Positions 3,080 through 47,242 of a DNA stretch of 64,000 nucleotides are shown here, piece by piece. The number at the start of each line of letters is the position of its first letter. The first letter of the stretch is position 1. The stretch is from Oryzomonas sagensis (GTDB lineage Bacteria > Desulfobacterota > Desulfuromonadia > Geobacterales > Pseudopelobacteraceae): contig NZ_VZRA01000002.1 in the NCBI RefSeq assembly GCF_008802355.1, positions 467,642-531,641 on the forward strand, in the 5' to 3' direction. The position numbers and the translations under genes were made by a program. The notes under the pieces are model-generated. The model made no database searches. It was not told the origin of the DNA and saw only the letters and a program-made list of their open reading frames with translations.

Positions 3080-3946
3080 GTGAACATGGTGCATAAACAG
3101 GAAACCGTCTCGTCCCGCTATTTCGACTACCTCTACCGGCTGGGGAGCACCGTCAATGCCGCCATCGGGCTGTTATGCTGCGTGCTCCTCGGGGCTGTGG
3201 ACGTTCTGACGCCGCCGGAATACATGTTTTCCTTTCTCTACCTCCTCCCCATCTCCTTTACCACCTGGTTTGCCGGCAAACGCGCGGGCCTGCTGGCTTC
3301 CATAACGTGCACCGCCATTCTGGCGCGGTACAACTTTCAGGCGGACATGCTCGCCGCTATATGGAACAACCTGTCGACGCTCGGCATCTTCTGCGTCGTC
3401 GCCGTCATGGTGTGCAAGATCCATCAGCTTCTGGACAACGAACGGATTCTGTCCCGCACCGATGCGCTGACCGGGGCAATGAACCTCCGAGCGTTCACCG
3501 AACTTGTGGAGTATGAAATATTGCGCTTGCGGCGCGACTATAGGCCCTTTTCCCTTGCCTATTTCGATATCGACAACTTTAAAAAGGTGAATGACAGGTA
3601 CGGGCACCGCCAGGGTGACGAACTGCTCAAGTCGGTGGTAAGCTGCCTGAGGGAAAAGATACGGAGGACGGATATCATCGCCAGGCTGGGCGGGGACGAA
3701 TTCACCATCTTTTTCCCCTCGACGGACCATGAGGCGGTGAAGACGGTAACGCTGGATCTGGTGAAGTCACTGGACCGGCTGGCGAAACTCAACAAGTGGC
3801 CCACCACCATCAGCATGGGGGTCGTAACCTGTTCGGACGGGGGATGCAAACTCGACGACCTCATATCGACGGCGGACAAGCTCATGTACGACGTGAAGCG
3901 TGCCGGGAAAAACGGCGTTGAATATGCCGTGTATCCGCGGGCGTAA
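3080..3946 (+). CDS. Membrane-anchored diguanylate cyclase (GGDEF)
   Basis: The product has 288 residues. Residues 25-115 hold several hydrophobic segments, probably a membrane sensor domain. A GGDEF domain fills residues 125-285 with an intact GGDEF active site at 204-208 (RLGGDEFTIFF). The product inhibition site RxxD (RRTD, 195-198) lies exactly five residues before it. It should therefore make c-di-GMP from two GTP and be feedback regulated. The start is GTG 3080 or ATG 3086, two codons apart; neither has a strong ribosome site. It converges with the minus-strand gene ending at 3965. Confidence 0.88.
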   Translation: MNMVHKQETVSSRYFDYLYRLGSTVNAAIGLLCCVLLGAVDVLTPPEYMFSFLYLLPISFTTWFAGKRAGLLASITCTAILARYNFQADMLAAIWNNLSTLGIFCVVAVMVCKIHQLLDNERILSRTDALTGAMNLRAFTELVEYEILRLRRDYRPFSLAYFDIDNFKKVNDRYGHRQGDELLKSVVSCLREKIRRTDIIARLGGDEFTIFFPSTDHEAVKTVTLDLVKSLDRLAKLNKWPTTISMGVVTCSDGGCKLDDLISTADKLMYDVKRAGKNGVEYAVYPRA

Positions 3947-3964
3947 CGGGACAAACCTGAAAGG

Positions 3965-5773
3965 CTATTCCTGATACCCCAGAGCATTCACCCCGGCCAG
4001 ATAGTGCGCAAATCTCTCAGCCGCCTTTATTTTCAGGAACGTTGTGGTCGTCAAATAACGCGTGGACAACGGGTCGCTCAGCACCTGTCTGCCATACGTC
4101 TCCATAATCTGATTGCTCTTGAGCTTCCTGTCATCCGGCAATATCGCACTCTCGCGTTTTTTGCCGCCTTTTACCCAGTGGTACAACTTTTTTGCCGGTT
4201 CGATGCATGCGGAAGGTAAAACCGCATGGGCAAGACGAGACAGAAACGTCTGCTTATAACCATCCAGGAATTCCAACTCGAAAGTCGTGCGATTAATTTT
4301 TGCCGGCCTATGTGTGGTGCATACGGGCAGGTCTAAGAGCTCCGGCATCAGGGTATGAATGAGCCGTATCTGGAATACATCGTTCGATCGATACTCGAAC
4401 GGCATCTCTAACAGTGAATCGTGCAGACACTTCAACGCCAATGGGTCAATATAGTGGCAAAACTCGTTGGCAAAGTTCAGGAACCTTGCATCGGTGCGGA
4501 TGTAAAGGAAAAGGGCCGCTCTTACGAAGGTTTCTAATGGCGCTCCATCATCAGGATATTCTATCCGGCCGCGGCGCAAGCCCTCTCTCGCATCCTGGAT
4601 GAATTCGGATCTATAGAGTTCCCGGCAAGGAAGATCAGGGCTCTTGCCTTCGGCAGACATATTGAAATCAATGAGGTCATCGATTGTATAGTTTCTCTGC
4701 GCTTGCGCCCATGGCCTCCTGCATGCCGTAATAACGCCGCGTCCGCCGAGCAGGAGATCGGGATAAGGTGAAATGCCGCCGCTCAATCCCGCTAACAACG
4801 ACCGGGAAGCTCCATAAACCTCATACTGGAAGCCGTAAGTCCGGAATAACTCCTGTAACATATTTTGATGGTATGGCTGTTCTCCGGACCAGTCCAGTAG
4901 CTGGAAAGGGAGGTTGAATGTTTTGGCGATTTTTGTTGCAATTTCAAGATCGATTGGGCGGTCGTCGGTCAGGTCGCTGTTTCCGACTCCATACATGATT
5001 TTAGGAGCCGCCCCCTGATCCAATAACGCCGCCAGGACGGTTCTTGAATCGCGTCCGCCTGTTCCGAAAAGCCCAACAGAGCCGACCGCCGTTATCTCGC
5101 GGAACACCGCCTGGACCTCGGATTTATACCCATCAACCGCATCGGAAATCGATGAATATTTTTGCCCGGCAGTAGGGGTATCCGGTAGATCAGTTACTTT
5201 GAACTCTCCATCGTTAAGGTCGACAGTTATCGCCTGGGTGCCGAAAAGTCGCCTCACTCCCCTGTAGAAAGTCTCTTCTCCCAGGGTGCAGCTCTCAAAT
5301 GCGGTCATGACCAGTTTTAGTGGATTTATTCTCCGCTCTGGCAACATCTGCGCACAGATATCGAGCGAATTCGAAATATTCCAGCACGAATCCATAGCGG
5401 AGTAATACAGAGAAATCGCACCCTGAGGATCGGTGAAGACGGTTATTTTATTTTGATGCCTGATCGCGACGGCGTAGTGGCCGATTGCCTTTGAGCGTAC
5501 CGCTTCAATGCCACTGTTGACGAAATCGGCATAGAAGTCCCGAAGCGCCGAAGGACCAAGCCTGGACCGGTAAATGATCGTGCCGGCTGAGCATATCCAA
5601 TCGTCTTCTCCACAGGTAACAAGGTTATCGGTGCCGACGGCGCGCTTTCTGTATGCCTGAACATGGCAGTTATGGGTGGAAAGATACCCTGATGAGCTCA
5701 GACCCGCTCTCTTGCATGCGTTTTCGGCTTGTCGATGCGAATTCTCGTTTGATGTCAGGTACCATCGAGCCAT
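3965..5773 (-). CDS. Asparagine-synthase-like ATP-pyrophosphatase protein lacking the Ntn cysteine
   Basis: The 602-residue protein has an N-terminal region like the glutaminase half of AsnB (GHYAVAIRHQNKITVFTDPQGAISLYYS) and a C-terminal synthetase half with a PP-loop (FGTGGRDSRTVLAAL, near residue 240). It starts MARW, so the catalytic Cys2 of a true glutamine amidotransferase is missing. The start at 5773 is chosen for the GGGGGAGGGG ribosome site; a longer frame begins at 5797. Relatives without Cys2 act as amide- or lactam-forming enzymes in peptide or glycan tailoring, but no precursor peptide or partner is adjacent. Its GC content is visibly lower than that of the neighbours, suggesting transfer. 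Confidence 0.7.
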   Translation of the reverse strand: MARWYLTSNENSHRQAENACKRAGLSSSGYLSTHNCHVQAYRKRAVGTDNLVTCGEDDWICSAGTIIYRSRLGPSALRDFYADFVNSGIEAVRSKAIGHYAVAIRHQNKITVFTDPQGAISLYYSAMDSCWNISNSLDICAQMLPERRINPLKLVMTAFESCTLGEETFYRGVRRLFGTQAITVDLNDGEFKVTDLPDTPTAGQKYSSISDAVDGYKSEVQAVFREITAVGSVGLFGTGGRDSRTVLAALLDQGAAPKIMYGVGNSDLTDDRPIDLEIATKIAKTFNLPFQLLDWSGEQPYHQNMLQELFRTYGFQYEVYGASRSLLAGLSGGISPYPDLLLGGRGVITACRRPWAQAQRNYTIDDLIDFNMSAEGKSPDLPCRELYRSEFIQDAREGLRRGRIEYPDDGAPLETFVRAALFLYIRTDARFLNFANEFCHYIDPLALKCLHDSLLEMPFEYRSNDVFQIRLIHTLMPELLDLPVCTTHRPAKINRTTFELEFLDGYKQTFLSRLAHAVLPSACIEPAKKLYHWVKGGKKRESAILPDDRKLKSNQIMETYGRQVLSDPLSTRYLTTTTFLKIKAAERFAHYLAGVNALGYQE

Positions 5774-6032
5774 TTTCCCCTCCCCCACGACGTGCAAACT
5801 TTTTGCCTGCTAAGGGTTTGTTCACTCCATAAGCACTTCTGTCGGGATAGCCGCCGCTGACGGACCATTTTCGAGTTGCCGCCCCATCAAACCCACAGTC
5901 ATAATTTTACCCCATACAAGTATAAATTCAAATGCAGTTTCAGCATGTTAGAAATGTCGCCACGATCCAGAAAATGTTGAAATAATTAACACCATGATGC
6001 CGGTTCCCCAACCATCCCCTCATCACACAAAG

Positions 6033-6066
6033 AAAGGCCCTCGGAACATCTCCACGGGCCTTTTTT
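6033..6066 (+). terminator. Rho-independent terminator-like hairpin upstream of cstA
   Basis: GGCCC (6036-6040) pairs with GGGCC (6056-6060), extended by GG/CC at 6043-6044/6052-6053, and six T follow directly. No gene ends just upstream on the plus strand. It may end a short transcript or insulate the cstA promoter that begins nine bases later. Confidence 0.6.
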
Positions 6067-6074
6067 GCATCAAT

Positions 6075-6103
6075 TTGACACATCCATACCACGGTTGTAT
6101 GCT
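6075..6103 (+). promoter_or_regulatory. Sigma-70-type promoter for cstA
   Basis: A perfect -35 box TTGACA (6075-6080) is followed by a 17-base spacer and TATGCT (6098-6103). The start of transcription would be near 6110, giving an untranslated leader of about 140 bases before cstA. The leader contains a GGGAGC/GCTCCC hairpin at 6205-6224, shortly before the ribosome site. Confidence 0.65.
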
Positions 6104-6250
6104 GCCACCTGCACGGAAGAACATCAGTTGACTGGGTTTCGGCGTTATTGACGTGCCGGCGTTACCAATTGTGCCTCAAGCCGCAAATGCAATCCCCCCA
6201 ATAAGGGAGCAGGGTAAAGCTCCCGAAACAGCGCAAGAAAGGCCTGACCG

Positions 6251-8095
6251 ATGAGTGTCCTCTATCTTCTCATATCCTCCCTCTGTATCCTTGCCCTGGC
6301 GTACCGCTACTATTCCGCCTTCATTGCCGCCAGGGTCCTGATGCTGGACGACCGCAACATTACGCCGGCGATTACCTGCAACGACGGCAAGGATTATGTC
6401 CCGACCAACAAGTGGGTGGTCTTCGGACATCACTTCGCCGCCATTGCTGGGGCGGGGCCGCTCATCGGGCCGACGCTGGCGGCACAGTACGGCTGGGGCC
6501 CCGGCTTCTTCTGGATTCTGCTGGGCTCGGTCTTCGCCGGCTGCGTCCACGACATGATCATCCTCTTTGCCTCGGTCCGCCACCAGGGGCAATCCCTGGC
6601 GGTCATCGCCCAAAAGGATGTGAGCAAGCTCACCGGCATTACCACCGCATTCGTTACCCTGTTCATCATCATCGTGGCCCTGGCCGGCCTGGCCGTGGCC
6701 GTGGCCAATGCGCTGTTCAACAACCCCTGGGGCGTCTTCATCATCGCCATGACCATCCCCATCGCCATGCTCACCGGGGTCTACATGTTCAGGATCAGGC
6801 CGGGCGCCATCCTGTCCGGGACGACCTTCGGCGTTATCGCCATACTGGCAGCCGTGTATTTCGGGGGACCGGTCGCCCAGTCATCCGTCGCCGGATGGTT
6901 CACCTTCAGCAAGCAGAATCTGTCGATCATCCTGCCGCTGTACGGATTTTGCGCGGCGGCGCTGCCGGTGTGGCTTTTGCTCGCGCCGCGCGACTATCTC
7001 AGCACCTACATGAAGATCGCCGTGATCGGGGGGCTGGCGATGGGGCTGTTCTTTGTGAATCCCACCGTGCAGATGCCCTTCGCGACCCGCTTCATTGCCG
7101 GCGGCGGCCCGATCATCCCCGGCCCGGTCTGGCCGTACGTCTTCATCACCATCGCCTGCGGCGCCATCTCCGGGTTCCACGCCCTGATCGGCTCCGGCAC
7201 GACCCCCAAGATGCTGGAACGGGAAGGGCAGATCCGTCTGATCGGGTACGGCGCCATGCTGACGGAAGCATTCATCGGCGTGATGGCGCTTCTGGCCGCC
7301 GTCACGCTGGTGCCCAACGACTACTTCGCCATCAACTCCTCGGCCGCGGCCTTTGCCAAGCTCAACATGCCGGTGCAGAACCTGCCGGAGCTGTGCCGCC
7401 TGGTGGGCCTGGACGTTGCCCACCGCCCCGGCGGCGCGATCTCGCTGGCGGTCGGCACGGCGTACATCTTCTCCCACGTCGGCGCGGGATTGCAGCATAC
7501 GATGAAGTACTGGTTCCAGTTCATCATCATGTTCGAGGCGCTGTTCATTCTGACCACGATAGACGCGGGGACCCGGGTGGCGCGCTACATCCTGCAGGAT
7601 ATCCTGGGAAAGGTCTATGCCCCGCTCAAGCAGACCGACTGGATACCGGGGGTGGTGCTGACCAGCGGCGGCGTTTCCTTTGCCTGGGGGTATATCCTCT
7701 ACACGGGCGATGTCTCCTCCATCTGGCCCCTGTTCGGCGTGACCAACCAGACGCTGGCGGCGCTGGCGCTGGCCATCGGGACCACGATCATCCTCAGGAT
7801 CTCGGCCAAGAAGCGGTACGCGCTGATCACGGCGGTGCCGTGCGCCTTTGTCACGGTGACCACCTTCGCGGCGGCCTTTATGAATATCCAGCTCTACCTG
7901 GCCCAGGGCATGATACTCAACACCGTGCTCAGCGTCGTGATCATCGTCCTGGTGACGGTCATCATCGTGGAAAACCTGCGCGTCTGGCTCACCCTCCTCA
8001 AAACGGAAAAACCGCTCGGCATGAACGATGAACGGGAACATATCTACTGCCCGGTGGTCCCTGCCCATGCGCCGGATGACCTGCCGCTGGCCTGA
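6251..8095 (+). CDS. cstA: Carbon starvation protein A family transporter
   Basis: This 614-residue, highly hydrophobic protein has CstA hallmarks: an early DYVPTNKWVVFGHHFAAIAG, then GPTLAAQYGWGPGF and many transmembrane helices. It is shorter than the roughly 700-residue E. coli CstA, matching the compact form found in many other bacteria. CstA proteins import pyruvate or peptides through the inner membrane, often when carbon is scarce. It has its own promoter (6075-6103) and a long leader, and stands alone. Its GC content is typical of the window, unlike the genes on either side. The substrate is inferred from the family. Confidence 0.92.
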   Translation: MSVLYLLISSLCILALAYRYYSAFIAARVLMLDDRNITPAITCNDGKDYVPTNKWVVFGHHFAAIAGAGPLIGPTLAAQYGWGPGFFWILLGSVFAGCVHDMIILFASVRHQGQSLAVIAQKDVSKLTGITTAFVTLFIIIVALAGLAVAVANALFNNPWGVFIIAMTIPIAMLTGVYMFRIRPGAILSGTTFGVIAILAAVYFGGPVAQSSVAGWFTFSKQNLSIILPLYGFCAAALPVWLLLAPRDYLSTYMKIAVIGGLAMGLFFVNPTVQMPFATRFIAGGGPIIPGPVWPYVFITIACGAISGFHALIGSGTTPKMLEREGQIRLIGYGAMLTEAFIGVMALLAAVTLVPNDYFAINSSAAAFAKLNMPVQNLPELCRLVGLDVAHRPGGAISLAVGTAYIFSHVGAGLQHTMKYWFQFIIMFEALFILTTIDAGTRVARYILQDILGKVYAPLKQTDWIPGVVLTSGGVSFAWGYILYTGDVSSIWPLFGVTNQTLAALALAIGTTIILRISAKKRYALITAVPCAFVTVTTFAAAFMNIQLYLAQGMILNTVLSVVIIVLVTVIIVENLRVWLTLLKTEKPLGMNDEREHIYCPVVPAHAPDDLPLA

Positions 8096-9069: not shown

Positions 9070-10608
9070 TCAGCTATTTGAATGTATATAAATATTTTTA
9101 CCACAAGCACACAAAACAATTATCATTAAAAGTGGTACCAATATTCCTTTATAAGTGTGGTTGATATAATTTAAATAGAGCCATTTAAAATCAAAAATAT
9201 TCATGTATGGTTGAGAAAGTACATCATTATTGTTTGCTAGATATGTTTTTTCAACATAGTTGTAGTTTGATAATTTTTTAGCGGAATCATAAACGAATTT
9301 GACATGATACAAAATCGGCGATCTGCGCCAGTTAAAATAGGTCTCCGTTGGTGGTTCTTGAATGGGCTGCACTCCGTCACCTTGTGCGATGTCAAATTTT
9401 ATATTTTCGTTAAGTTTCAAATAATTAAAGTACCTGTAAGGGCTTATCGATATTGCTGTGATCTGAATTGCCGCCCCTAAAATTACACCCGCGACAATGA
9501 AGGTTTTGAGCTTTCCGGACGGGTTGGAAAGTATGGAGGCTATGGGAATTATGAAATAGGGAATAGTAGCCAGGAGAAATCGTGGCCCCCACGCCCAGTC
9601 CCCATGCCAAAACAAATATTTCGAGTAAAAAGCAAAGTAGGAAATGATGAGAGTGACAAAGCAGAGTGCTATTTTGAAATTTAATTTAAAAAAACAGTAA
9701 ACTGATATGAAAAAGAATAACGTAGGGGGTGAATAAAAGAAGAAGCCTTTTCCTGGGCTGAAGAGAAGCCCGGTTAAGCCAATAATAGTATTTGTGCCAG
9801 CAAAAATATTTAGCCCCCACTTTGTTGCCATGATTCCATAGCCGGTTTCAAATACTGAACCAAATCTATAATAATTATACCACATGTTCAAGGCTGCAAA
9901 TGGAGTCAGGCATATACAAAAAAGGCAAATACATGTTACTATTTGTTTTAGCTTGTCTTGATAAAACTCGCTAAAGATATATTCTAAGAGCAGTAATGTA
10001 AGTACTGCTGGAATAGCAATGACTGCATTTATTCGTGTTATGACAGCCATGCCGATAGAAAAGGCTGAATAAATTATATATGAAGTTTTTTGGGTAATTG
10101 TGTGCTTGTGCATGCAATAAACTGAAAAAAGTATAAAGAGTGTTTCAATGCTTTGATCACCTGGGTCTTTAGCATAGTAGCAGGCCATTGTAGTAAAACC
10201 ATAAATAAAAGATATTGTCAGGCTGATACGTTTTGAATATCCAATGGAAGATGTAAATACATACATTAAGCAGTTTGTAGATGCGCTGATGGTCACATTT
10301 ACCAATGGTATCAATGTCGCCGGTTCAATATGTAACAATTTACCTAAAAGGTAAAACGGAATACCCAGCAACACGGAACCTATTCCAAACCAAGAATAAT
10401 CTCGACCATCAACGCCTTTGACGCCGCTACCAGTTGGGACGTTGAAATCGAAGTGATTTGTTAGAGACGACAAAACATCAACTCTAGCCTGGCCGACATC
10501 AAAGATATTCAGACCCGATAAAATCAGTAAGTAAAAAGCTAACGAAAATAGAAAAATGTCGATAATTAGCAGGTTGCTACTTCTGTCACTACTGTTTGAG
10601 TTCATCAT
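9070..10608 (-). CDS. Polytopic membrane protein, probable lipid-linked glycosyltransferase (GT39/GT83-like)
   Basis: The 512-residue product has about ten or more hydrophobic segments and a short charged region near residue 400. The pattern (early DVGQARVDVLSSL with acidic residues in the first outer loop, then many helices) resembles GT-C enzymes that move sugars from polyprenyl phosphate donors on the outer side of the membrane. It precedes the DPM1-like gene by 97 bases on the same strand, which fits a donor synthase and user pair for surface glycan or protein modification. No family motif is decisive. Base composition is clearly AT-rich. Confidence 0.55.
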   Translation of the reverse strand: MMNSNSSDRSSNLLIIDIFLFSLAFYLLILSGLNIFDVGQARVDVLSSLTNHFDFNVPTGSGVKGVDGRDYSWFGIGSVLLGIPFYLLGKLLHIEPATLIPLVNVTISASTNCLMYVFTSSIGYSKRISLTISFIYGFTTMACYYAKDPGDQSIETLFILFSVYCMHKHTITQKTSYIIYSAFSIGMAVITRINAVIAIPAVLTLLLLEYIFSEFYQDKLKQIVTCICLFCICLTPFAALNMWYNYYRFGSVFETGYGIMATKWGLNIFAGTNTIIGLTGLLFSPGKGFFFYSPPTLFFFISVYCFFKLNFKIALCFVTLIISYFAFYSKYLFWHGDWAWGPRFLLATIPYFIIPIASILSNPSGKLKTFIVAGVILGAAIQITAISISPYRYFNYLKLNENIKFDIAQGDGVQPIQEPPTETYFNWRRSPILYHVKFVYDSAKKLSNYNYVEKTYLANNNDVLSQPYMNIFDFKWLYLNYINHTYKGILVPLLMIIVLCACGKNIYIHSNS

Positions 10609-11019
10609 ATTTTTATCCGCCGCCGAATAAAGCTATCCGAACTTGACTGCATGACAGTCGCAAAACCATTGTGATGGGCTTTTTAATGGTGCGCCTCCAA
10701 AATCGGAAGATGCTCCTTGCACAAAAAGAATCAGCATCACGCGACGTTGCCCCTGACACGTTTCAAAATTATTGCATAATTTTTTTGCTGCGCAAGCCGA
10801 CTCCCTAAATTACTGCTTAACAATATTTCTGGTAGGGCGCATGGTTAACGCAAATTCATGAAAATTCCTGAGGGAGTGTTGTGAGTTGGCGTAAGTGGAG
10901 ATAGGATGCCGATTATCCAGCAGGTGTGTGCGTTAAATATTGACTAGGCCACCTATGTGACCGGAATCACTATGTGTGGTGTGGTTGATCTTTTAGACCT
11001 TAAAAGCATTTAATAGAAA
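10609..11019. other. Intergenic region without recognised gene
   Basis: About 410 bases between the low-GC membrane gene and the tRNA-Arg terminator. Base composition falls between that of the island and that of the rest of the window. No open frame with a ribosome site, no repeat family seen elsewhere in the window, and no copy of the tRNA 3' end was noticed. Confidence 0.5.
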
Positions 11020-11049
11020 AGGCCCCTGCAAATATTTTTGCAGGGGCCT
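11020..11049 (-). terminator. Terminator of tRNA-Arg
   Basis: A perfect 11-bp stem AGGCCCCTGCA (11020-11030) with TGCAGGGGCCT (11039-11049) and an 8-base loop. It lies ten bases after the tRNA 3' end. Reading minus, TTTTC follows the stem; reading plus, GTTTTTT follows, so it could act in both directions. Confidence 0.85.
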
Positions 11050-11058
11050 GTTTTTTAT

Positions 11059-11135
11059 TGGCGTCCCCGAGACGATTCGAACGTCCGACCCCTTCCTTAG
11101 GAGGGAAGTGCTCTATCCTGCTGAGCTACGGGGAC
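11059..11135 (-). tRNA. tRNA-Arg (anticodon CCT)
   Basis: The minus strand folds as a full 77-nt tRNA. The acceptor stem is GTCCCCG/CGGGGAC with discriminator G and an encoded CCA. The D arm holds GCTCAGCAGGATAGAGC. The anticodon stem CTTCC/GGAAG frames the loop CTCCTAA, giving anticodon CCT, which reads AGG. The T arm contains the usual GTTCGAATC. It sits downstream of apt but has its own promoter and terminator. Confidence 0.96.
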
Positions 11136-43435: not shown

Positions 43436-44578
43436 CTAAAGAAAGTGCGCGAAGACCTGGTTGGAGAGGAGCATGCCGCGCCGGGTGAGGCGGACCCTGT
43501 TGCCGGCAGGTTCCAGCAGCCCCATGGCGGTCAGTTTGGCCAGGGCTGCCTCGAAGGTTTCATCCAGACCGATCCCGAATTCCTGCCGGAACCCGTCCGC
43601 CCCGATGCCGTCCGCCATGCGCAGCCCCAGGAACATGAACTCGGCCATGGCGTCCTGCCGGGTGAGGCTCAACTCCGCCCCATGGGGAAGGCGGCCCTGG
43701 GCGATTGTCCCGGCATAGGCGTCCAGGTCGGCCGGATTGCCGAAGCGGACGCCGTATCCCTCCCGCAGGAAGGAGTGGGCCCCGCACCCCAGTCCCAGGT
43801 AGCCGTCCCGGTGCCAGTAGCCGCTGTTGTGGGCCGAACGGCGGCCGGGGAGGGCGTAGTTGGCGATCTCGTAATGCTCGTAGCCTGCGGCCGTCAGGAC
43901 ATCGTCCGCCTCCTCGAACATGGCCACCGCCAGATCCTCGTCGGGGAGGAACGGGCTCTCTGCGCCGTAGCGCAGGGCAAAGGGGGTCCCCTCCTCCACG
44001 GTCAGGCCGTAGACGGAGATATGCTCCGGTCCCAGGGCCAGGGCTTGTTCCAGTTCGCTGCGCCACATGCCGATGGTCTGTCCCGGCAGGGCGTGGATCA
44101 GGTCGATGCCGATATTGGTAAAACCGGCCGCGCGGGCGGCCAGGAAGGCCTCCCTGGCCGCGACTGCGCTATGGATGCGTCCCAGGGCCTTCAACAGGGG
44201 ATCGTGGAAGGACTGCACCCCCAGGGAGAGGCGGTTGACCCCGGCGCTGCGGAAGGCGGCCAGCCGCTCCCGGTCCACGGTGCCCGGATTGGCCTCCAGG
44301 GTGATCTCGGCCTCCCGATCCAGGCCGAACAGTTCGCCCGCCCGTTTCAGGATTCGGTCGATCAGGGGGGGGGCGATCAGGGAGGGGGTGCCGCCGCCGA
44401 AGTACACCGACTCCAGCGGCCTCTCCGCTCTGAAAGCGTGGGCTGCCAGGCCCATCTCCGCCAGCAGGGTATGGGCGTAACCATCCAGGTCGGCGGTGGT
44501 GGACTCTTGGGAGACAAAGGCGCAGTAGGGGCATTTGCGGCGGCAGAAGGGAATGTGGAGATACAGGCGTGTGAACAT
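43436..44578 (-). CDS. hemW: Radical SAM haem chaperone HemW
   Basis: The 380-residue protein starts LYLHIPFCRRKCPYCAF with the CxxxCxxC radical SAM motif and continues with SVYFGGGTPSLI and LEANPGTVDRERL. It belongs to the HemW group, once annotated as oxygen-independent coproporphyrinogen oxidase but shown in other bacteria to deliver haem to target enzymes. The extra cysteine of true HemN in CxxxCxxCxC is absent here (CPYCAF), which supports HemW. Its stop abuts a repeat element. Confidence 0.92.
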   Translation of the reverse strand: MFTRLYLHIPFCRRKCPYCAFVSQESTTADLDGYAHTLLAEMGLAAHAFRAERPLESVYFGGGTPSLIAPPLIDRILKRAGELFGLDREAEITLEANPGTVDRERLAAFRSAGVNRLSLGVQSFHDPLLKALGRIHSAVAAREAFLAARAAGFTNIGIDLIHALPGQTIGMWRSELEQALALGPEHISVYGLTVEEGTPFALRYGAESPFLPDEDLAVAMFEEADDVLTAAGYEHYEIANYALPGRRSAHNSGYWHRDGYLGLGCGAHSFLREGYGVRFGNPADLDAYAGTIAQGRLPHGAELSLTRQDAMAEFMFLGLRMADGIGADGFRQEFGIGLDETFEAALAKLTAMGLLEPAGNRVRLTRRGMLLSNQVFAHFL

Positions 44579-44768: not shown

Positions 44769-45233
44769 TTACGCCCCATGGCCTGCTCCCTCTCCGCTAT
44801 GGAAAACGCCGATCTGGCGATACGCGATCATGAACCAGAGTAAAAACGGCAGCAGCCAGTGCCCGAGCATGTCCCAAAGATTGGTGGCGATGATGTGAGG
44901 GAGGGTCGGGTTCGGTATCTGGATAAACGGTACCCCCCGCCAGAGCAGGATCATGCAGAAATCCATGAAGAGGTAGAGCAGTATGGCTCCTGCGATGCCG
45001 ATCAGCCGCTTCCCGATGGCCAGTCCCGGTGTGGCAAGGACCAGAGCGAAGAAGGGGTATAGCTTGACTGAGCTGACATACGGTATGGCCCTCATGGCCT
45101 CGGTGGTCGGCATTATCCGGGAGGTGATGAGGACCAGTACGAACCGGCAGGCAAGGTCAAAGCGGGGCAGCAGGGGAACCAACAGTAGGGAAAAGATGAT
45201 AAGCCTAGCGAGGAAGAACAGGATTTTCTTCAC
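44769..45233 (-). CDS. Exosortase H-associated membrane protein
   Basis: The 154-residue product has about four hydrophobic segments (LIIFSLLLVPLLPRF, YPFFALVLATPGLAI, LIGIAGAILLYLFM, LLPFLLWFMIAYR). It overlaps the exosortase gene by 29 bases and must be coexpressed. Its position next to XrtH suits the small membrane proteins that accompany this exosortase class. No enzymatic motif is visible; it may help substrate handling or assembly. Confidence 0.65.
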   Translation of the reverse strand: MKKILFFLARLIIFSLLLVPLLPRFDLACRFVLVLITSRIMPTTEAMRAIPYVSSVKLYPFFALVLATPGLAIGKRLIGIAGAILLYLFMDFCMILLWRGVPFIQIPNPTLPHIIATNLWDMLGHWLLPFLLWFMIAYRQIGVFHSGEGAGHGA

Positions 45234-45780
45234 GGTTCACCACCAGTTCAATCCAGGCAAGCCACATGGCAACGACCAGAATGAGGAAGAGCGCCTGCCA
45301 TGCGTAGTCGTGGGTGAAACGGGCATAGTGCGGAGCATGTTCCGTCACCCAGCCGAGAAAAACGAGCCGGGCTATGTTGGCGGCAAAGATGAACGGCATG
45401 CCGACGGCGAGGGCAACGAGCTTTGCCCGGGCGGAAGAGGTATAGGACAGCACAAACGAGACGAAGAGTATGAAGACGTTGATGGCGGTGCATTCCGGCG
45501 TGATGATCCACGTCTTGTTTTTGAGCATGATATACGTCGCATCGACGCTGTTTTCGACATTGATGCGCTTCAGGAGGCCGGATACGATCCTGATGGTGCT
45601 TTCCCGCAACGGGTCGGTGTCGGCCGGCATCGCGAACCAGAGGGTGAGGTGAAAGATTCCCATGAAAAGGCCGAAGAGCAGGCAGGTCTTCACCAAAGAA
45701 GCGGCGGGGCGTTGAACCGCCCCCCTTGGCTCATGGGGCATGTCCCGTTTCCCCGTCGTTTCGTATTCGGCGCTTTTCAT
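45205..45780 (-). CDS. xrtH: Exosortase H (XrtH), putative IPTL-CTERM sorting transpeptidase
   Basis: The 191-residue polytopic protein carries the exosortase triad: Cys97 in TPECTAINVF, Arg138 in ANIARLVFLGWV and His157 in FTHDYAW. Its short length fits XrtH-type enzymes, which act on IPTLxxWG-CTERM tails in the inner membrane. A GAGGG site precedes ATG 45780. The gene just upstream (45807-46688) encodes a protein with a matching tail, 27 bases away, and a membrane partner overlaps downstream. Confidence 0.85.
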   Translation of the reverse strand: MKSAEYETTGKRDMPHEPRGAVQRPAASLVKTCLLFGLFMGIFHLTLWFAMPADTDPLRESTIRIVSGLLKRINVENSVDATYIMLKNKTWIITPECTAINVFILFVSFVLSYTSSARAKLVALAVGMPFIFAANIARLVFLGWVTEHAPHYARFTHDYAWQALFLILVVAMWLAWIELVVNREENPVLPR

Positions 45781-45806
45781 TCATCCCTCGGGACTGCTGC
45801 GGCGAA

Positions 45807-46688
45807 CTAACCGCGCGAACCCTGGTTTTGTTGTCTCTTTCGCCGGAAGATAATTCCCACGCCCCCCATGATTCCCGGCAAAAGCCACCAGCTCTCCATG
45901 ACCGGGACAGAGGTTAGAGGTGGGGAGGGGGCAGGGGCGGCGCTCACGGAAACCACGACCGTATCGGAGGCCGTCGCACTGCCATCCGTTACCGACAGGG
46001 TAAAGGTGTGGGCTCCTGGGGATAGGGGCGGAAGGCCCGCGAGGTTCAGAGGGGCATTGCCCGAGCCGTCCACCGGCTGGGAATCCTGAAGAACCGTACT
46101 CCCCTCCAGCCAGCGGTAGGTCAGGCCGCTTCCCGCAACGCGGCCCTGAAGAATCGTCGAGCTTTGCTGGCTGGCCGAAATGGTAATGTCCGCGCCGGCA
46201 TCGACGAAAAACGGGTCTACCGTTATATCACCGATGGTCCGGCTCCCATAGGAATGGCCGCCGGTGCCATAGCCCAGGTCATTGGCGTAGAATTCGATCC
46301 TGTGATCGTACGGAGTGCCGGAATATGTCAGGGGGACCGTCCTCTGCCATTGGCCGTTGACCGTTGTAATCCAGGCGTCGGCGCCTCCTGCCGCGCCCCC
46401 CGCAATGGTGCCCTTGATCTTTTTGCTGCTGGTGCTGTAGGTGTCGTAAATGGCCCAGGGGTAGGCGACGTCGCTATTGGGGTTCACGCTGTCGGTGGCC
46501 GTTGCCGTAACCGTGAAGGGGATGCCGATATAGACCTTGCACGGCGCCTCAAGGGTATAGGTCGTCTGATTGCCGCTATCCGTCCATGATGTCGTCCATG
46601 TTGAACCCGCCGGACATGTGGCCAGGGCGTAGCCGGCAAAAAACAGGATGAGAAAAAGGACGGAGATGATGGGAACGGCATTTTTCAT
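45807..46688 (-). CDS. Secreted protein with IPTL-CTERM-like sorting tail (probable XrtH substrate)
   Basis: The 293-residue protein has a signal peptide (IISVLFLILFFAGYALA), a beta-rich body with an Ig/PKD-like segment (LTYRWLEGSTVLQD, then HTFTLSVTDGSATASDTV), a proline-rich spacer, and a tail VPVMESWWLLPG + hydrophobic stretch + RRKRQQ. That tail follows the IPTLxxWG-CTERM plan (V-P-V-M-x2-W in place of I-P-T-L-x2-W), so it is the likely substrate of the exosortase encoded just downstream. The biological role of the body is unknown. Confidence 0.75.
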   Translation of the reverse strand: MKNAVPIISVLFLILFFAGYALATCPAGSTWTTSWTDSGNQTTYTLEAPCKVYIGIPFTVTATATDSVNPNSDVAYPWAIYDTYSTSSKKIKGTIAGGAAGGADAWITTVNGQWQRTVPLTYSGTPYDHRIEFYANDLGYGTGGHSYGSRTIGDITVDPFFVDAGADITISASQQSSTILQGRVAGSGLTYRWLEGSTVLQDSQPVDGSGNAPLNLAGLPPLSPGAHTFTLSVTDGSATASDTVVVSVSAAPAPSPPLTSVPVMESWWLLPGIMGGVGIIFRRKRQQNQGSRG

Positions 46689-46933: not shown

Positions 46934-47242
46934 ATGAAACGTGCAGTTGCCATCCTGGTCGCCTTTGTCGCCGTAGCGTTCGTAACGGTTGCGGCCCAGG
47001 CTGAGAGCAAGGGCGAGCAGATCTTCAAGCAGAAGTGCGCCATGTGCCACATCGTCAAGGGCAAGGGCGGCTCCATCGGCCCGGACCTGACCAAGATCGC
47101 CGCCAGGCTGAAAGAAGGCGACCTCAAGGTCCAGTTGGAGAACCCCAAGAAGAAGAACCCCTCCACCTCCATGCCCTCTTTCAAAACTCTGCCCAAGGCC
47201 GATATGGTCGCCCTGCTGGGGTATTTGAAGACATTGAAATAA
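46934..47242 (+). CDS. Small monohaem cytochrome c
   Basis: The 102-residue precursor has a signal peptide (MKRAVAILVAFVAVAFVTVA, cleavage after AQA), one haem motif CAMCH near residue 35, and the distal methionine in STSMPSFKTL. This is a class I periplasmic cytochrome c that would carry electrons between membrane and periplasmic partners. AAGGAG lies before the ATG, and a strong terminator follows, so it is a single-gene unit. Confidence 0.93.
   Translation: MKRAVAILVAFVAVAFVTVAAQAESKGEQIFKQKCAMCHIVKGKGGSIGPDLTKIAARLKEGDLKVQLENPKKKNPSTSMPSFKTLPKADMVALLGYLKTLK

Follow-up and report, generated by a model that had tools for sequence, protein, structure and literature searches.

Within the window, by which we mean the whole 64,000-nucleotide stretch analysed here, three closely spaced genes on the minus strand encode a candidate sorting substrate, a short exosortase and a small membrane protein, referred to below as the partner. 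The features of this cassette and its flanks are the following:

45807-46688, minus strand: putative substrate gene, an open reading frame of 293 aa with a signal-like N-terminus, an uncharacterised N-terminal domain, a PKD-type domain and a predicted C-terminal sorting tail
45885-45908, minus strand: predicted sorting motif VPVMESWW, starting at residue 261 of 293 and conserved in nine aligned tails
45205-45780, minus strand: short exosortase gene, 191 aa, above the TIGR04178 and PF09721 cut-offs
45490-45492, minus strand: exosortase Cys97, unchanged in all ten aligned relatives
45367-45369, minus strand: exosortase Arg138, unchanged in all ten aligned relatives
45310-45312, minus strand: exosortase His157, unchanged in all ten aligned relatives
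44769-45233, minus strand: partner membrane protein gene, an open reading frame of 154 aa with a GTG start inside the exosortase gene
45205-45233, minus strand: overlap of the exosortase and partner genes, 29 bases
43436-44578: HemW-like gene flanking the cassette (named by eye)
46934-47242: c-type cytochrome gene flanking the cassette on the other side (named by eye)

The sequence-only reading had described three minus-strand genes in this order, a secreted-type protein ending in VPVMESWW, a helix and a basic tail, an exosortase with the three residues listed, and a small membrane protein whose gene shares 29 bases with that of the enzyme, and our analysis bears out each of these observations. 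All three open reading frames were confirmed at their coordinates. The substrate begins with a hydrophobic segment (the best 19-residue hydropathy windows start at residues 4-7), carries the PKD-type domain at residues 164-248 (PF22352, 29.9 bits, cut-off 27) and ends with VPVMESWW, a brief hydrophobic segment and a basic terminus; its gene is separated from the exosortase gene by 26 bases. Cys97, Arg138 and His157, which we take to be the catalytic residues of the exosortase family, are all present. This gene anatomy and these conserved residues are directly observed.

The window enzyme belongs to the exosortase/archaeosortase superfamily (TIGR04178, 58.6 bits, cut-off 23; PF09721, 46.6 bits, cut-off 25.7). 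Its best subfamily model is exosortase X (NF046081), at 75.1 bits and below the cut-off of 170, and the second-best is archaeosortase B (TIGR04144), at 73.7 bits and below the cut-off of 150; its XrtH (TIGR04177) and XrtA scores of 63.5 and 22.7 bits likewise fall below the respective cut-offs of 86 and 208. Among 141 genomes of the order there were 25 exosortase matches at E up to 1e-8, from which ten genes in nine genomes are set apart at E < 1e-30, the next match lying at 5e-14. None of these ten close relatives, the window enzyme included, reaches the XrtH cut-off, and the other nine reach no cut-off among the subfamilies listed; archaeosortase B is the best model for seven of the nine and XrtH for one (G090, with 74.1 bits the best XrtH score of the nine), whereas the XrtH positive controls from G051 and G053 lie above the cut-off at 244.8 and 113.9 bits. 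In a tree that includes ten XrtH-like enzymes of the wider group, the ten close exosortases form one clade (100/100). The label exosortase H, attached to the locus by the earlier reading, is therefore not supported, given the sub-threshold scores, the separate clade and the failure of all nine tails to match IPTL-CTERM. We favour placing the enzyme in a subfamily without a name, beside XrtH, as part of an overall explanation that we judge likely as a whole.

Beyond this collection, an alignment-based scan of named genomes confirmed seven loci, six of them in records of Geomonas, Geobacteraceae or Desulfuromonadales and the seventh a distant match from an archaeon; named carriers include Geomonas anaerohicana and G. 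propionica, members of a genus of the order Geobacterales, together with Geobacteraceae or Desulfuromonadales assemblies. With the window protein as query, named genomes yielded no confirmed locus, and a plasmid search gave no match. One genome, G066, carries two copies of the exosortase cassette (C114 and C69; L061 and L062), and each copy comes with a separate large protein that bears the tail.

The nine tails encoded next to close exosortases share the consensus V-P-V-[MLF]-x-[GS]-x-W, and three glycines and one arginine are invariant among them. The tail model recovered 12 tails at E < 1e-10 from the 141 genomes, with one or two in each carrier, and these are confined to the nine genomes with a close exosortase, so that enzyme and tail occur in the same 9 of 141. 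The co-occurrence (Fisher 2e-14) is blind to kinship and partly circular, as nine of the 12 tails trained the model; the chance that the three untrained tails (the second gene of G112, the second gene of G089, on another contig, and the only tail of G046) would land in the nine exosortase genomes is about 3e-4. A same-strand tail gene lies 0-26 bases upstream of the exosortase in nine of ten cases. Co-occurrence and linkage are thus direct observations, and with the partner, present at all ten exosortase loci, the trio is found together repeatedly in relatives, beyond chance. The sole tail of G046 reads V-H-V-M, with histidine replacing proline, and lies much closer to an EpsH-type exosortase (about 9 kb) than to the short exosortase (about 0.9 Mb), so which enzyme acts on it is uncertain. 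In G089 the linked tail is encoded by an open frame of 76 codons, which may be a broken gene. Weaker matches to the tail model (E between 9e-4 and 0.009) were set aside: those in G021, G099 and G130 do not look like C-terminal tails, and the one in G112 is a PEP-CTERM protein.

The sequence-only reading had also noted that the motif departs from IPTLxxWG, had proposed a genome-wide search for IPTL-CTERM-like tails and had regarded enzyme and substrate as a self-contained pair. The departure is upheld, as none of the nine tails matches IPTL-CTERM (TIGR04174) at E up to 10, and the search of the host genome gave no IPTL-CTERM match over the cut-off, the sub-threshold ones not being C-terminal. 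The pairing stands as well: the host has a single tail of the cassette type (the only other match, at E 0.08, contains a stop), and its gene adjoins the exosortase gene. Six of the nine tails weakly match VPLPA-CTERM (best E 7e-4), so the signal resembles several known types.

We then considered what the tails are attached to. The N-terminal domain of the window protein is shared by 5 of the 12 tail proteins, the others being different repeat or Ig-like proteins by eye; since the substrates otherwise differ, the tail is their common signal. The same domain was found in 7 of 141 genomes. In two of these, G118 and G047, it occurs without a close exosortase on proteins that end without the tail, but the G118 protein is encoded beside a different exosortase, of the fused kind, so that the comparison is no more than suggestive. 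In the G118 locus (L085, G118:C42, 2638-6509), the gene for the tail-less protein with the domain is followed by genes for a small exported protein, for a mini-protein that ends in APLGGDGILIVTTVAIAGYGYWKSRK and for the fused exosortase of another class, and here the sorting-like tail seems to reside on a separate small protein. The small exported protein (~171 aa, 49-62% identity to the G112 copy) is conserved in exosortase loci of different classes (L063 in G112, 10577-11089; L057 in G029, 5879-6391; L085 in G118, 3835-4353; also L016, L017, L018, L019 and L023); it is present in 2 of 10 cassette loci and absent from the window, and is possibly a further part of the system.

The third gene of the cassette encodes a protein without a match at E up to 1 to any Pfam or NCBIfam model. 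Partner genes begin with GTG in nine cases and ATG in one, and the overlap with the exosortase gene is 29 bases in all ten, which suggests coupled translation; the sequence GGTGGT before the partner start, which falls within the codons of two invariant valines, may serve as a ribosome site. None of the ten partners matches NF041730 (exosortase H-associated membrane protein) at E up to 1. The XrtH-like enzymes of the order bear a partner-like domain after the catalytic unit, and 6 of 16 such fused domains do match NF041730 by E value (best E 1.5e-4; the family cut-off is 35 bits). Compared directly, the ten partners match ten fused domains at E 1.3e-9 (probability 96%), against 0.23 for the reversed control; one of 200 shuffles of 20-column blocks scored as high, so that this observed similarity is concentrated in one motif. 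The fused proteins were divided where the alignment indicated, which left the first helix of the accessory domain on the catalytic side, outside the compared core. In G071, the XrtH and partner models match a single 364-codon frame one after the other. From these comparisons, our preferred reading of the partner is that it corresponds to the accessory domain at the C-terminus of fused XrtH-like enzymes, split off as a separate protein. Among 395 genomes sampled from the phylum, the partner model gave four matches, namely the host, the fused G071 frame, G263 (E 9e-10, with an in-frame stop) and G489 (E 9.5e-4); the last two were set aside, as neither place shows a partner-like frame by eye.

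The partner also resembles the exosortase itself. Ten-row alignments gave a weak match (E 0.0019, probability 14%, against 0.16 and 0.22 for the reversed controls), and 1 of 100 shuffles of 10-column blocks but 0 of 100 column shuffles did as well; wider alignments of the partner and the catalytic unit gave E 1.7e-6 and 5.1e-7, with 3 of 200 and 0 of 200 shuffles of 20-column blocks reaching the real score. Most of the signal comes from a single motif block, so that full-length homology is unproven. A pacearchaeosortase model weakly matches 4 of 10 partners (best E 0.0095), five of the 11 NCBIfam families weakly matched by the 16 fused domains are exosortase families, and PF09721 matches one of the 16 (E 0.0071) and, in G118, matches one frame twice (E 2.8e-10 and 0.018). 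On the strength of the resemblance in wide alignments, we tentatively entertain the idea, while holding it to be wrong somewhat more readily than right, that the partner is a pseudo-exosortase, a duplicated helix unit minus the catalytic cysteine that pairs with the active copy, split here and fused in XrtH-like enzymes.

Structure searches were also carried out. The model of the exosortase is of moderate quality (mean pLDDT 76.1) and that of the partner (mean pLDDT 84.2) has four longer helices; Foldseek returned no match for either at E up to 0.001, and the best VIA-align results (exosortase, Z 6.6, rmsd 9.8, 119 aligned; partner, Z 6.6, rmsd 2.9, 75 aligned) are common for helical bundles and were given no weight. 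Profile matches of the exosortase to solved structures were confined to designed proteins (six distinct sequences, with a best E of 1.4e-5 across 34 residues), read as composition, and the substrate gave one weak match, to a KIAA0319-like protein (E 0.036).

The host's wider complement of sorting systems was surveyed with the same models. PF09721 finds two exosortases, the window enzyme and an EpsH-type one (228 bits) on contig 7 (G000:C7:32893-33648), which overturns the impression of a single exosortase gained from a protein search. Three PEP-CTERM matches exceed the cut-off in the host; two end in VPEP tails (L157, L158), and the third, on contig 1, is covered by a longer reading frame, is not tail-like in the translated frame and was judged a chance match. 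Among the nine cassette genomes, G066, G089 and G090 gave no match to an EpsH-type exosortase, and G066 and G089 none to PEP-CTERM, so the cassette is independent of the EpsH/PEP-CTERM system. IPTL-CTERM exceeds the cut-off in 4 of 18 genomes tested, once each in G051 (37.9 bits), G112, G082 and G053, and in G051, G112 and G082 it lies about 6-7 kb from an XrtH-like enzyme; given these single tails near XrtH-like enzymes, small one-to-one pairings look common in the order. In G112 three types of exosortase are represented by four matches, of which two are EpsH-type, one is XrtH-like and lies in a 680-codon frame, and one belongs to the close subfamily, with matching tail types.

With respect to the origin of the cassette, five congeners have no cassette gene at the same junction, the conserved neighbours being kept in order; the gap from the HemW-like gene to the next conserved gene measures 130 to about 490 bases there, and G115 has no cytochrome match. 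The host enzyme groups with four members of another family (98/97), the partner tree leaves the host's placement unresolved, and the G+C fraction is 0.588 at the cassette compared with 0.612 in the window. The empty junctions, the grouping of the enzyme and the difference in G+C together suggest that the cassette was acquired horizontally.

We conclude that this is likely a dedicated exosortase cassette with its own motif, whose membrane enzyme probably removes the tail from essentially a single exported protein, the substrate encoded next door. In the scheme that we propose, the N-terminal signal would direct export of the substrate, and its C-terminal helix would then stop it in the inner membrane, with the basic end inside. 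The short exosortase and its partner subunit would attack the chain near V-P-V-M-x-x-x-W through Cys97, aided by Arg138 and His157, the partner contributing the accessory membrane domain that is fused C-terminally in XrtH-like enzymes. The helix would be discarded, and the ectodomain either released or handed to a new carrier, as acceptor, toward a presumed location at the cell surface. We base the proposed cleavage at the motif before the membrane helix, and the possible transfer to a carrier, on what PMC11980579 and PMC3237569 say about systems of this type.

The locus might instead be an ordinary exosortase H/IPTL-CTERM system whose motif has drifted. XrtH is indeed among the best models for the window enzyme, and for the G090 relative the best one, the spacing of proline and tryptophan equals that of IPTL-type tails near XrtH-like enzymes, and 6 of 16 fused domains match the XrtH-associated model; but the models do score over their cut-offs elsewhere (G051 and G053 for the enzyme, G051 for the tail), while they do so for no enzyme, tail or partner of the cassette type, and the 100/100 clade keeps the enzymes separate. 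We therefore consider a drifted system unlikely. Less probable still is that the host EpsH-type exosortase processes the substrate and the window enzyme has another job: such an enzyme exists, and the G046 tail gene lies near one, yet G066, G089 and G090 have the tail without an EpsH-type match, and the tail gene adjoins the short exosortase in nine of ten loci. The helix and basic end would suffice to anchor the protein, so the tail could act as a membrane anchor alone and never be cut. This we find the hardest of all to credit, since the pre-helix motif is conserved across otherwise different proteins, tails at E < 1e-10 are restricted, among 141 genomes, to those with a close exosortase, and proteins with the same N-terminal domain end tail-less in G118 and G047, which have no close exosortase, albeit with the G118 copy beside a different one.

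The dedicated cassette that we favour can be set against several described systems. Exosortase H/IPTL-CTERM (TIGR04177, TIGR04174, NF041730) is similar in its short exosortase, its Pro...Trp motif before the helix and its accessory protein or fused domain, whereas the cassette scores below both cut-offs, forms its own clade, uses V-P-V-[MLF]-x-[GS]-x-W and has a partner without an NF041730 match. The archaeosortase B/VPXXXP-CTERM model (TIGR04144) ranks high, but the family is archaeal by name and the cassette motif lacks the second proline at the VPXXXP spacing; exosortase X (NF046081), the best model for the window enzyme, stays at 75.1 bits against 170. With exosortase A (EpsH)/PEP-CTERM the cassette has the superfamily and tail layout in common, EpsH being a larger enzyme with a VPEP motif and separate genes. 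A literature search found no paper with 'exosortase H' or 'IPTLxxWG' and none with exosortase together with 'associated membrane protein'; IPTL-CTERM is mentioned in one paper, PMC8671808. Dedicated sorting systems with a single target have already been described, as far as the available excerpt of PMC3237569 goes, so that the pairing is not unusual in itself; the rhombosortase/GlyGly-CTERM system covered there also joins one enzyme to one neighbouring target, the enzyme being of an unrelated protease family. Both features of a dedicated system are found in the cassette, which has one target in the genome and a target gene that adjoins the enzyme gene.

Exosortases with many targets are hard to study, and an enzyme, its partner and essentially one target within 1.9 kb offer a minimal test case. 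Here the accessory domain has a gene to itself, so deleting that one gene would be enough to probe what it does. The cassette adds to the exosortases a subfamily that probably has its own sorting motif and, if the pseudo-exosortase reading of the partner were true, this enzyme class would work as a pair of an active and a dead copy.
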